A stretch of 33,380 nt of DNA from a virus: the IMG/VR virus record IMGVR_UViG_3300030389_000842, positions 1 through 33,380 of that record. The stretch is one strand, 5' to 3'. Below the pieces are notes generated by a model that was not told the DNA's origin, made no database searches, and saw nothing but the letters and a program-made list of their open reading frames with translations. The position numbers were made by a program, and so were the translations under genes. This document shows positions 1 to 24,452 of the stretch, one piece after another; positions within the stretch are counted from its first letter, which is position 1, and the number at the start of each line of letters is the position of its first letter.

Positions 1-1305
1 ACTCAAGGTGCAATAGATGAGAATCAAAGTGGACTGACAGCAGGGCAGACATTCTTTGTGGATAAGAATGGTGCATTGCAATTAAGTACAACTGTTGCTG
101 CTTCAGTAGGAGCTTCTGTTAATGTAACATCTGGTGGTACACTTGGAGAACATCCTGCTGTAACATATGATAGTAACAGTAACAGATATGTTGCTGTTTT
201 TAGTGATGATGGTAATAGTGGATACGGCACTGCTGTAGTGGTTTCTGTTTCTGGAACTACCTGTAGTGTTGGCTCCTCTGTTGTATTCTCAGGTTCTTCA
301 AAAGGCACTGATATATCTATTGCATTTGATAGCAATGCTAACAAAGTTTTAATAGCATATAGAGATCAAGGTAACTCAAACTATGGCACTGCTGTTGTAG
401 GCACAGTAGATAACAGTGACAATAGTATATCTTTTGGAACACCTGCTGTATTTGAAAGTGCAACTGCACAATATATGGGAATGGATTTTGACTCTAATGC
501 TAATAAGTTTGTCATTGCATACAGAGATGGTGGTAATAGTGGACATGGAACTGCTGTTGTAGCAACAATATCTGGTACTGATGTTAGTTTTGGTACTCCT
601 GTTGTATTTAATGCTGCATCAAACTTTACAGATCCAACTCCAGTGACATTTGATAGTAGTAATAATAAAGTGCTTATTTCTTATAGAGACTCTGGAAATA
701 GTAATTACGGAACCTCTATTGTGGGAACTGTTAGCGGAACCGCTATTAGTTTTGGCACTGAGGCTGTGTTTGAAAGTGCAAACTCATCTGTTATAGGAAG
801 TGCTTTTGATAGTAGTAACAATAAAGTAGTTATAGGATATAGAGATGCAGGTAATAGTGGACATGGAACTGCTGTCGTAGCAACAATAAGTAGCACAAGT
901 GTTAGTTTTGGTACTCCCGTTGTATTTAATGCAGCAGGTATTCAGTATCCAGACCTTGCATTCAGCACTCAACTCAATAAAGTATTTATTGTTTATCAAG
1001 ATAATGAAACTGTAGTTAATGGCATTTTAGGAACTGTAAGCGATACATCTATTTCTTTTGGAAGTGAGATTTCTTTATCAGGGGCTTCATCAGGTAGTTC
1101 AGATTCTGGTGAGAGAACAGAATTAGGTGTAGCTTTTAATACAACTGATAATAACTTTGTTATTATTTCTATGCCTAAAGATGGATCTAGTGCAACTCAA
1201 GTATTTGCACATACAAGTGAAGAAGACTTATCAGGCTCACTATCAACAGATGCTGTAACAGCAGGAACAGCACTGTCTGCTACTAAGTTATTGGTGAAAG
1301 GGTAA
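1..1305 (+). CDS. Seven-repeat beta-propeller-like tail fibre protein (5' partial)
   Basis: The reading frame is open to the first base, so the N-terminus lies outside the window; a GTG at 58 is inside the frame and not a convincing start. After a short module (GLTAGQ..F/VDKNG) come seven repeats of about 50-58 residues with the pattern FDSxxNKVVIxYRDxGNSxxGTAVVGTVSGTxxSFGTPVVF, beginning near bases 157, 328, 487, 649, 808, 961 and 1135. The last is degenerate. Seven such beta-rich units suggest one seven-bladed propeller. The C-terminal VTAGTALSATKLLVKG matches the end of the next gene and is a common ending in marine phage fibre proteins. A role in receptor binding or virion decoration is inferred from position and composition. 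The gene ends two bases before the next ATG. Confidence 0.85.
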   Translation, partial: TQGAIDENQSGLTAGQTFFVDKNGALQLSTTVAASVGASVNVTSGGTLGEHPAVTYDSNSNRYVAVFSDDGNSGYGTAVVVSVSGTTCSVGSSVVFSGSSKGTDISIAFDSNANKVLIAYRDQGNSNYGTAVVGTVDNSDNSISFGTPAVFESATAQYMGMDFDSNANKFVIAYRDGGNSGHGTAVVATISGTDVSFGTPVVFNAASNFTDPTPVTFDSSNNKVLISYRDSGNSNYGTSIVGTVSGTAISFGTEAVFESANSSVIGSAFDSSNNKVVIGYRDAGNSGHGTAVVATISSTSVSFGTPVVFNAAGIQYPDLAFSTQLNKVFIVYQDNETVVNGILGTVSDTSISFGSEISLSGASSGSSDSGERTELGVAFNTTDNNFVIISMPKDGSSATQVFAHTSEEDLSGSLSTDAVTAGTALSATKLLVKG

Positions 1306-1936
1306 AGATGAGAACAGTACCACCAACAGAAAAAGGTAAATACAGAGCGATTGCATCTGGTGCTATAGCTAATGGTAAACCTGTTGTGGTTAATAGTGCA
1401 GGTACTGTTAGTGTGGTATCTGGAACAGCATTAACACTTGGTTCTGAAACAGAGTATACAAGTGACGCATCTAACTTTAATCGAGTAGCATTTGACAGTA
1501 ACAGCAATAGAATTGTTATTGCACATAAAAATGGAAGTAATAGTAATGGAACAGCTACTGTTGGTTCAGTAAGCGGTACGTCTATAACATTTGGAACTAC
1601 TGTTGCTTTCGATTCATCAGGTGAAGCAGAGTTTTATGGTATAGCTTTTGATTCAAACTCTAACAAAATAGTTATAGCTTATAGAGATACTACAGATAGC
1701 AACAAAGGTAAGGCAGTAGTTGGTACTGTAGATTCATCAGACAACAGTATAAGTTTTGGATCTGAAGCTACTTTTACAACTAACAATGCTGTATATATAG
1801 ATGCTTGTTTCGACAGTAGCACTAATAAAGTTGTTATCAGCTATACTGACTTTGGTAACAGTGGACATGGAACTGCTGTCGTAGCAACAGTAAGTGGTAC
1901 ATCTATCTCATTTGGTACTCCTGTTGTATTTAATAG
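532..1936 (+). repeat. DNA-level repeats inside and between the two propeller genes
   Basis: An 83-bp segment coding for GNSGHGTAVVATISGT..SFGTPVVFN occurs at 532-614 and 850-932 in the first gene and at 1854-1936 in the second. The first two copies differ at about nine positions; the third agrees best in its first half and its end. Other blades are far more diverged, so these segments look recently homogenised by recombination or gene conversion within and between genes. Confidence 0.8.
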
Positions 1937-2756
1937 CGCAAATAGCTCACATCCTCGTTGTGTTTATGATAGCAATGCAGAGAAAGTTGTTATAGCCTAT
2001 TATGATCTAGGAAATAGCTATAACCCTACTGGTATAGTAGGCACTGTATCAGGAACAGGTATATCTTTTGGTAGCGAAGCTACAACAGCATCTGTTACTG
2101 GTGGTGATTACATAGGGTTAGCATATGACAGCACTAATAACCGAATAGTATTTGCATATCACGATGACAGCAATAGTAGTTATGGAACAGCAGCAGTAGG
2201 CACTGTATCTGGAACAAGTATAAGTTTTGGAACCCCTGTAGTTTTTGAATCTGCTGACAACGCATATATTGATGCAACATTTGATGCCTCTACTGGAAAA
2301 GTAGTTATAGCATATAGAGATGTAGGTAATAGTAATTATGGTACATATGTTGTGGGAACAGTATCAGGTACATCAATATCTTTCGGAACACCTGCTACAT
2401 TTAATACTAACACAGAATACATAGGATTAGGTTATGACAGCAATGCAGAGCGAGTTGTTATATCATATAAAGATGCAGGTGATGGAGATGATGGCACTGT
2501 GAGAATATTACAGAATGCAGTACCATCAAACCTTACTACAGAAAACTACATTGGCATAGCTACAGGTGGATCATACGCAGATGGACAGAGTGTAACTGTA
2601 GATGTGATAGGCACAGTAAATAATGATCAGTCTAGCTTAACAGCAGGACAACAGTATTTTGTACAAGAAGATGGTACACTTGGATTAACAGCAGATAGTA
2701 CAAGTGTCGTAGCAGGTACTGCCATATCTGCAACAGAATTAATAGTAAAGGAATAA
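1308..2756 (+). CDS. Seven-repeat beta-propeller-like tail fibre protein, paralogue of the upstream gene
   Basis: This 482-residue protein starts two bases after the preceding stop, with GAAAGGG upstream of the ATG. The N-terminal module (IASGAIANGKPVVVNSAGTVSVV) and C-terminal module (IGIATGGSYADGQSVTV, LTAGQQYFVQEDGTLGLTAD, VVAGTAISATELIVKE) are of a type common in phage fibres. Between them are seven repeats starting near FDSNSNRIVIAH, FDSNSNKIVIAY, FDSSTNKVVISY, YDSNAEKVVIAY, YDSTNNRIVFAY, FDASTGKVVIAY and YDSNAERVVISY. They match the repeats of the upstream gene, with some stretches nearly identical in DNA. The complete head and tail modules show it is a full gene, not the broken end of its neighbour. 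A seven-bladed propeller and host-surface binding are inferences; no catalytic motif is visible. Confidence 0.88.
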   Translation: MRTVPPTEKGKYRAIASGAIANGKPVVVNSAGTVSVVSGTALTLGSETEYTSDASNFNRVAFDSNSNRIVIAHKNGSNSNGTATVGSVSGTSITFGTTVAFDSSGEAEFYGIAFDSNSNKIVIAYRDTTDSNKGKAVVGTVDSSDNSISFGSEATFTTNNAVYIDACFDSSTNKVVISYTDFGNSGHGTAVVATVSGTSISFGTPVVFNSANSSHPRCVYDSNAEKVVIAYYDLGNSYNPTGIVGTVSGTGISFGSEATTASVTGGDYIGLAYDSTNNRIVFAYHDDSNSSYGTAAVGTVSGTSISFGTPVVFESADNAYIDATFDASTGKVVIAYRDVGNSNYGTYVVGTVSGTSISFGTPATFNTNTEYIGLGYDSNAERVVISYKDAGDGDDGTVRILQNAVPSNLTTENYIGIATGGSYADGQSVTVDVIGTVNNDQSSLTAGQQYFVQEDGTLGLTADSTSVVAGTAISATELIVKE

Positions 2757-2759
2757 ATA

Positions 2760-2996
2760 ATGTTTGAAGAAATATCACCTGTAATTTTTTGGAACGTAGT
2801 ATTAACACTAGTGATCGGTCCTGCCATATGGATGTTTAGAAATCTTATGGCTGAAGTTAAACGTATTGATATATTATTAAATAGGACTAGAGAAGACTAC
2901 TCAACTAAGCAGGAACTTAGAGAAGACATGCGTATGGTGACAGAGGCACTGCATCGCTTAGAAGATAAGCTAGATAAGGTATTAGAAAAAAGGTAA
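2760..2996 (+). CDS. Small membrane-anchored coiled-coil protein (possible holin or virion accessory)
   Basis: This 78-residue protein has one clear N-terminal membrane segment (about residues 8-26, VIFWNVVLTLVIGPAIWMF). A highly charged helical tail follows (about 30-78) with heptad-like spacing of Leu/Ile/Val (LREDMRMVTEALHRLEDKLDKVLEKR). It starts three bases after the fibre gene, with AAAGGA upstream, and ends six bases before the large virion gene, so it is co-transcribed with late genes. One membrane span with a charged cytoplasmic tail is compatible with a class III-type holin, but also with a small structural protein. No family is recognised; the holin idea rests only on topology and position. 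Confidence 0.75.
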   Translation: MFEEISPVIFWNVVLTLVIGPAIWMFRNLMAEVKRIDILLNRTREDYSTKQELREDMRMVTEALHRLEDKLDKVLEKR

Positions 2997-23570: not shown

Positions 23571-24452
23571 TTACTCCTCCTTAAATTGTTGCCTCGCAGT
23601 CAGCGCACTGTTGGCACTAAGGAAAGTGTTCTTTATGTAGGGTTTAACTGACTGTGGATTAGCGTGTCCTGTAACAGACATAATCTGTGGTAGTGGTACA
23701 CCTGCCTCTACCATCTCAGTTGTGCCAGTTCTACGTAAGTCCATAAGTCTAAGCTCTTCAGGTAACCCTGCCTGTCGCATAATCCTCCTGCCTATTTTAG
23801 ATAACCTCTCCATAGAGAATGGTATGTACTCTCCATCTCTAGGAGTCGGCATGGGAACGACATACTTTTGAAAGTCAAAGTCATCTCTCTGTTCTTTTAA
23901 CATATCCAACAGAGATTCAGATATAGGTAAGTGCACCACTGCACCTCTCTTAGATTGTATCAGGTTCAGACGGCTGTTATCAAAGTCTATGCACTGCCAC
24001 TCAAGCATACGCATGTCACCTACACGTTGACACCACTCGTATGCCATCTGTACTATCAGTCCTACATTACGGTAAACAAAGTCACCATAGGCTACATTAA
24101 GAAACTTACGTACCTGATCCTCTGTCCACACTACATTACGTGATGCAGGTGTTAGCTTACGTACCAAAGCAAAGGGATTATTCTTGACATACTCCATGTC
24201 TAGCCCATACCTATATGCCCTGCCAGACACAACAGCTACATGATTAGCTAACTGTATGCCACGCTTAACCCATTCTTCGTAGGCTATCTTTGCATCCTTG
24301 CCTGTTACACTGTTGGCTGTCTTCTCTCCAAATCTATCTGTCAACACTTTTAAGAACCTTGTATAGTCTACTTTAGTTTTATCACGTAAGCGATTAAACT
24401 CAGGTGATTGCACGTAAAGGTTGACTAATCGTTTCACAGATATTGGCCTCAT
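23571..24452 (-). CDS. int: Tyrosine-family site-specific integrase
   Basis: This 293-residue protein has an N-terminal SAM-like arm domain (about 1-100) and a catalytic domain. The active-site set is R143 (CQRVGDMR), K168 (QSKRG), R240 (LMDLRRTGTTE), H263 (SVTGHANPQS) and the nucleophile Y272 (KPYIKNTF). The usual HxxR is MDLR here, so Met237 stands where the first His is normally found. The enzyme would integrate phage DNA into the host chromosome. No excisionase or repressor is recognisable nearby and I could not identify an attP site. It overlaps the 155-residue gene as ATGA and leads into the nuclease and replisome genes. Confidence 0.92.
   Translation of the reverse strand: MRPISVKRLVNLYVQSPEFNRLRDKTKVDYTRFLKVLTDRFGEKTANSVTGKDAKIAYEEWVKRGIQLANHVAVVSGRAYRYGLDMEYVKNNPFALVRKLTPASRNVVWTEDQVRKFLNVAYGDFVYRNVGLIVQMAYEWCQRVGDMRMLEWQCIDFDNSRLNLIQSKRGAVVHLPISESLLDMLKEQRDDFDFQKYVVPMPTPRDGEYIPFSMERLSKIGRRIMRQAGLPEELRLMDLRRTGTTEMVEAGVPLPQIMSVTGHANPQSVKPYIKNTFLSANSALTARQQFKEE

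Follow-up and report, generated by a model that had tools for sequence, protein, structure and literature searches.

How do two adjacent genes built from the same repeat vary within a phage, and what might their products do for the virus? These questions are raised by IMG/VR virus record IMGVR_UViG_3300030389_000842, which was analyzed in its entirety as a linear stretch of 33,380 nucleotides (positions 1-33,380; hereafter, the window). The virus is a tailed phage, the record is probably a fragment, and the source phage is uncultured and probably marine. Two genes lie in tandem on the plus strand at the beginning of the window: gene A (1-1305), of which only the 3' part is present because the open reading frame (ORF) runs past the contig end, and gene B (1308-2756), which is complete and encodes 482 amino acids. 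A preliminary description, made from the sequence alone, regarded these as fiber genes that arose by duplication, that each hold exactly seven propeller-type repeats, and that show signs of ongoing recombination. Our analysis places the emphasis on a different level: the propeller is predicted, from sequence comparison and structural models, to interrupt a small, mostly β scaffold domain of approximately 115 amino acids.

The propeller of gene B is flanked by approximately 40 N-terminal and 75 C-terminal residues that were conserved across the family. Relatives were sought in fetched loci, which carry L numbers here (the contig of L006 was present twice, as L006 and L016). One of these, L158, contained the scaffold alone at positions 388-732 (MRTVPP...ELIVKE), without a propeller. 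The DNA of L158 matched the window up to position 1417 and resumed at 2526. Gene B can thus be divided into an N-terminal scaffold half that is kept in L158 (1308-1417), a propeller segment of approximately 1.1 kb that is missing from it (1418-2525, delimited by this comparison and by the fold of residues 40-408), and a C-terminal scaffold half (2526-2753, LTTENYIG...ELIVKE). When read by eye, L158 also had an A-type gene ending upstream and a counterpart of the 78-amino-acid-type gene of the window (2760-2996) downstream; the L158 gene is therefore a syntenic relative of gene B that is approximately 1.1 kb shorter. The same propeller-less gene was carried by L159, a different assembly, and other propeller-less copies were present in L178, L162 (2608-2961), L168, L170, and L200. 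Proteins with two propellers had the second one either before or after an LT.GQ.Y(F/Y)V motif (architectures P2P34 and P23P4), and gene A is of the type with the second propeller after that motif. Searches of Protein Data Bank (PDB) sequences with two scaffolds returned nothing credible. When a scaffold profile was searched against PDB sequences, 29 of the 30 rows were TAL-effector repeats, with each domain below 9 bits in the alignments shown, and these matches were dismissed as an artefact. Giant relatives were also observed, in which the propeller-plus-scaffold unit occurs four times (L094, 3418-10476, 2,353 amino acids) or three times (L153, 1654-7653, 2,000 amino acids).

The inserted segment of gene B carries seven repeats of approximately 52 amino acids each, with anchors at amino acids 62, 114, 168, 220, 273, 325, and 376. 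The AlphaFold2 model of gene B, made from an alignment of 40 sequences, had a predicted local distance difference test score (pLDDT) of 91.8 and a predicted template modeling score of 0.81. Residues 40-408 aligned with seven-bladed propellers at Z scores of approximately 28-32 (VIA-align), and the matches included YncE, the BP39L and PLL lectins, WD40 proteins, and integrin heads. Gene B is predicted to be a closed seven-bladed β-propeller in which the ring is closed by a blade shared between the two chain ends, an N-terminal half blade completing the seventh.

We built a blade profile from 11 window blades and iterated it over 153 fetched loci and the window, and it detected 245 distinct proteins once contained copies had been discarded. 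The blade count covered 291 repeat groups that no contig end interrupts; near-identical contigs were kept in it, and the only proteins discarded were those lying within a longer one. There were 7 blade hits in 218 of these groups, 8 in 13, 14 in 3, and 1-6 in 57. We read the groups of 8 as those in which an N-terminal half blade was also detected and the groups of 14 as two propellers, and many of the 57 smaller groups had gaps of approximately 104 residues, which suggests a missed blade. In the groups of 7, the last hit mostly stopped at model position 31-46 and the other hits mostly at 47-50; the short last hit is what would be expected of a velcro half blade, with the ring closed through a shared blade. 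An insertion with the sequence DNSIS was found in 41 blades in 237 propellers, mostly in blades 1-2, and is weak as a test of conserved blade order. Full-length Pfam matches (Cyclophil_like2 at an E value of 1.3e-6, Agenet, and others) were discounted because their scores added up across the repeats; for Cyclophil_like2, none of the individual stretches passed. No convincing Pfam model was found for the propeller family of genes A and B.

The visible product of gene A, 434 amino acids, begins with a scaffold piece (1-93, TQGAIDENQSGLTAGQTFFVDKNGALQLSTT) that resembles the C-terminal scaffold of gene B and the linkers of L008 and L014; residues 3-40 align with residues 435-473 of gene B, in agreement with the related C-terminal modules noted in the preliminary description. 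A propeller follows (94-1200, approximate borders) and then a final scaffold piece (1213-1302, DLSGSLSTDAVTAGTALSATKLLVKG and a few preceding residues) with an ending similar to those of L008, L014, and L158. The blade profile matched six blades; the seventh, near amino acid 377 (VAFNTTDNNFVIISMPKDG), is degenerate and was recognized by eye. The AlphaFold2 model of the visible part had a pLDDT of 75.3, and its propeller aligned with YncE at a Z score of 28.5 over model residues 34-392. This part of gene A is predicted to be one seven-bladed propeller, the seventh blade being of low confidence. The closed seven-bladed fold proposed for both proteins was thus borne out by models and structural alignments, and no other fold was predicted.

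The claim of seven repeats per gene stood for gene B; it could not be extended to protein A as a whole, because gene A is truncated and its relatives carry a further propeller upstream. The opening residues of gene A (TQGAIDENQSGLTAGQTFFVDKNG) correspond to a linker inside the proteins of L008, L014, and L097, and these three, which are all of the other proteins with the gene A architecture, have the extra propeller upstream of the residue at which gene A starts. Complete relatives of the gene A type are approximately 860-870 amino acids in length with two propellers (L014, 872 amino acids; L097, 863 amino acids), and L008 has two propellers as well in a gene broken by a frame change. By extension, full protein A probably has approximately 870 amino acids and two propellers. 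The A-type gene of L008 (1-2605) lies in two overlapping frames (1-789 and 626-2605), from either a frame change or an assembly error.

Whole propellers also appear to have moved between genes. The gene B propeller of L005 and the first propeller of an 863-amino-acid gene in L006 were 97-100% identical in DNA over the equivalent of window positions 1482-1901. Outside of the shared propeller, identity was 48-63% in the N-terminal scaffold and dropped to 17-65% in the C-terminal parts, so one propeller occupies two gene contexts, and the similarity has its borders at the insertion edges. Synonymous divergence between L005 and L006 was low in blades 1-4 (0-0.11) and higher in blades 5-7 (0.37-0.54), and this jump inside the propeller is a sign of a mosaic. 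These data suggest that, on the larger scale, reshuffling takes place by the exchange of whole propellers, by their doubling, and by their presence or absence; the simple duplication of two genes that had been proposed was not supported. The propeller cassette was also observed in two gene orders, one in L006 and L014 and the other in L005, L007, and L045, as if the entire cassette were moving between phage lineages.

At a finer scale, the preliminary description pointed to 83-bp stretches at 532 (blade A3), 850 (A5), and 1854 (B3) as nearly identical. Their identity was only 89.2% for A3/A5 (9 differences), 81.9% for A3/B3 (15), and 83.1% for A5/B3 (14), and full identity was confined to a 30-bp core shared by A5 (856-885) and B3 (1860-1889); A3 has the same tract with one mismatch (538-567). 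Identical codons at equal residues numbered 26 of 36 for A3/A5 and 26 of 37 for A5/B3, a modest excess over the approximately 17 expected from codon usage (P ~0.002 each, uncorrected for 78 pairs). Among the translated loci, the peptide GHGTAVVAT occurred only in window A3, A5, and B3 and in the B3 orthologues of L005 and L006. Overall, B3 was 92-93% identical to those orthologues and 73% to A5, yet in the tract it equaled A5 at 30 of 30 positions and both orthologues differed at three. In a tract test, B3 passed with 1 of 12 blades of its own genome; when blades were taken from other contigs, 1 of 2,204 passed, at a different stretch. The B3/A5 tract is one good case of exchange within a genome.

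Across the family, a conversion test in which runs of any length counted showed only a slight enrichment (2,482 compared to 2,023 of 17,309 each, with at least 3 informative sites). A stricter test, with runs of at least 24 nucleotides, passed in 102 of 7,936 cases for the own genome compared to 17 of 83,000 for unrelated contigs. Likewise, at least 45 consecutive identical bases were shared by 124 of 22,448 blade pairs within a contig and by 123 of 2,539,108 between unrelated contigs. Support for a family-wide exchange of tracts between blades is real but moderate. The claim of exchange between blades was supported by the B3/A5 tract and the family-wide excess, which is modest when sister genomes serve as the control (see below), and an absence of conversion, named beforehand as the outcome that would overturn the claim, did not occur.

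The ratio of nonsynonymous to synonymous divergence (dN/dS) was determined for 370 orthologous blade pairs from 66 contigs. Values were 0.61 for the D-A loop with the first half of strand A, 0.42 for the B-C loop, and 0.06-0.23 elsewhere. In standard propeller topology, the D-A side and the B-C loop positions lie on one face and at the channel mouth; one loop face evolves fastest. Within gene B, blades 4-6 (1941-2408, approximate borders) had a strong excess of amino acid over synonymous differences compared to L005 and L006: nonsynonymous differences per site (pN) were 0-0.04 in blades 1-3 and 7 and 0.15-0.25 in blades 4-6, and synonymous differences per site (pS) were similar in the two blade sets (0.30-0.44 compared to 0.32-0.59). 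The excess had a Fisher P of ~5e-8 per comparison with a blade grouping picked after seeing the data, and an ungrouped chi-square P of ~1e-5. This pattern speaks for a sector of the ring that changes fast and not for imported diverged DNA.

Taken together, these data make it fairly probable that the products of genes A and B are virion adhesins, most likely tail-fiber-type host-recognition proteins with modular propellers, of an uncultured tailed phage; the virion location and receptor binding are what we infer. The scaffold would anchor the protein in the virion, and the propeller would use its variable loop face and its central mouth to bind a molecule on the host surface, perhaps a glycan. 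The conserved DNA of scaffold and blades could support homologous recombination by which such cartridges are swapped, added, and lost to give new specificities, and the same recombination could patch blade tracts while the ring remains at seven blades. Reshuffling of receptor-binding faces, as proposed earlier, is thus supported by sequence in its exchange part, and that the face binds a receptor stays a conjecture. More tentatively, at somewhat less than an even chance, we propose a full cartridge system. A single small virion-anchored β domain would offer three sockets for closed seven-bladed propellers, which could be gained, lost, or doubled there and traded among tandem genes as well as among phages, and blade-sized tracts would be copied from cartridge to cartridge within a genome. 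If true, such a system would provide combinatorial diversification of host recognition with no need for a diversity-generating retroelement, and would bear on how abundant uncultured phages keep pace with changing host surfaces. Because one gene occurs naturally both with and without its propeller, and module swaps are visible, recognition by modular propellers can be tested directly.

Several observations weigh against this proposal. The sister-genome control gave 169 compared to 98 of 12,839 each, an excess of only 1.7-fold; by contig pair, 31 were in favor, 11 against, and 43 tied, and these pairs are not independent. A single window tract passed the tract-sharing test. Every dN/dS value was below 1, and diversification by selection is not proven; after correction, the acceleration of blades 4-6 was significant in only 2 of 56 propeller pairs, those that window B forms with L005 and with L006. 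The seventh blade of gene A was poorly predicted. The control, the lone tract, and the modest surplus of codon identity for A3/A5 would suit ordinary tail-fiber paralogues from old duplications, in which likeness of blade DNA reflects ancestry, codon bias, and repeat selection with little ongoing conversion. We consider this explanation improbable, since it does not account for the agreement of B3 with A5 at sites where both orthologues differ, for the rarity of passing blades in other contigs, or for the mosaic jump in synonymous divergence between L005 and L006.

The weak relatives of the scaffold are capsid cement proteins, and this fits head decoration: the split scaffold would be a cement-type domain, and the propellers would stud the capsid, where they would adhere weakly and broadly to matrix, particles, or cell glycans and would not be the receptor binder of the tail. 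When the propeller was excised, the scaffold of L005 (4562-5995) matched Phage_cement (PF22758) at 29.2 bits (cut-off 27, E 1.2e-6), one of four excised scaffolds to exceed that cut-off. Of 23 excised scaffolds, 17 matched Phage_cement_2 (PF09956) at an E value of 0.1 or less (best 1.9e-5) and 4 matched Phage_cement, and family members had three PHROG head-decoration matches (phrog_122 twice and phrog_19421 once). However, none of six natural propeller-less proteins passed a Pfam cement cut-off (best E 4.4e-4), so kinship of the scaffold with cement proteins is a lead only. Gene position in relatives leans toward the tail, although the window itself does not include the genes upstream of its array. 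In L006 and L014, tail-region genes precede the propeller array, and the capsid gene lies several genes before it. In Lentibacter phage vB_LenP_ICBM2 (ICBM2), the neighbors of the related gene, gp49, are annotated as tail assembly chaperones, and terminase and portal genes separate gp49 from the capsid gene. We regard head decoration as unlikely. The propellers could alternatively be enzymes, such as glycan-cleaving depolymerases or sialidase-like proteins, and not binders. Several propeller folds are enzymes, and the lowest Foldseek E values were to bacterial sialidases; those matches were poor over the whole chain (query template modeling score ~0.44, root-mean-square deviation [rmsd] up to ~22 Å), neither A nor B had a convincing Asp box (in A, a loose pattern occurred once, within an insert), and the fastest-evolving positions form one loop face, unlike a conserved catalytic site. 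An enzymatic role is very improbable.

The propeller genes belong to arrays in many relatives. Of 141 loci, three tandem propeller ORFs (at least 5 blade hits) were present in 51, two in 22, and one in 68, and many loci were cut short. In L005, L007, and L045, the array has virion structural genes as neighbors (for L007 and L045 by resemblance of neighboring ORFs, not by their own profile match). A 124-amino-acid protein starting MAAPNIVNV precedes the array in L005 (1323-1694), L006 (5585-5956), L014 (5569-5940), and L045 (4190-4561) and is possibly a partner or adaptor; it was not present in L083, the fifth locus compared, and two copies gave no convincing PHROG match. In the window, both strands are used: gene A, gene B, the 78-amino-acid ORF, and the large ORFs are on one, and the replication genes (ribonucleotide reductase, Cas4-like exonuclease, DNA polymerase, DnaB helicase, primase, and integrase) are on the other. 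The integrase gene (23571-24452) is in the replication arm, adjoining the primase and DnaB genes, and by its presence the phage may be temperate.

At least 532 relatives were confirmed in viral metagenomes, where the family is common. Among 50,697 phage records, 3 matched the protein, and two of these were versions of ICBM2, a cultured marine podovirus. Its gp49 (AYP28108.1, a hypothetical protein) is like gene B in having an N-terminal scaffold half, a propeller-like region, and a C-terminal scaffold half in the same order; the hhalign alignment covered 445 columns, including both scaffold halves (E 1.6e-25). It differs in its sequence (~26-27% identity), in an extra N-terminal segment, and in being a single gene beside other fiber genes, whereas the window type is a tandem propeller array. 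The end of the ICBM2 genome where gp49 lies is described in PMC6775973 as variable and coding for tail fibers and tail assembly proteins. The protein adjoining gp49 (L234, 3276-4484) has a different repeat of ~50 amino acids (YQYSLSTAWDLSTASYDSVSFSVSGQD) and may represent another type of propeller within that tail module.

Other phage propellers differ further from these proteins. The phiKZ protein gp131C (PDB 4GBF) is reported in PMC4901313 as a seven-bladed propeller at the baseplate periphery and a suspected receptor binder; compared by description only, it shares the blade number with A and B and differs in phage type and context. It was not among the fold matches listed, from which no exclusion follows. 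The same paper gives the five-bladed propeller of the Staphylococcus phage phi11 receptor-binding protein as the probable receptor-binding part of a virion adhesin; that protein has stem and tower domains and is a trimer, and with seven blades the window proteins are not of its type. The SU10 nozzle protein is another known phage propeller (PMC9509320). Outside of phages, the seven-bladed PLL, PHL, and BP39L lectins resemble gene B in fold (Z ~28-32, rmsd 2.5-2.9 Å over 310-317 residues) at only 6-9% identity in the structural alignment, and the PDB sequence search found no lectin of the PLL kind. Glycan sites in the PLL family are between blades, where a tryptophan stacks on the sugar, according to PMC6943638; proteins A and B of the window contain no tryptophan. 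The phage cement proteins (PF22758 and PF09956) have a weak profile likeness, mostly below cut-off, to the propeller-excised scaffold, and differ in genome place. In the open-licence PMC literature searched, no description was found of propeller insertion in cement proteins or of a split-scaffold cartridge arrangement with empty relatives. Phage propellers were already known; the larger result here is the split-scaffold arrangement, with the propeller as an exchangeable insert.

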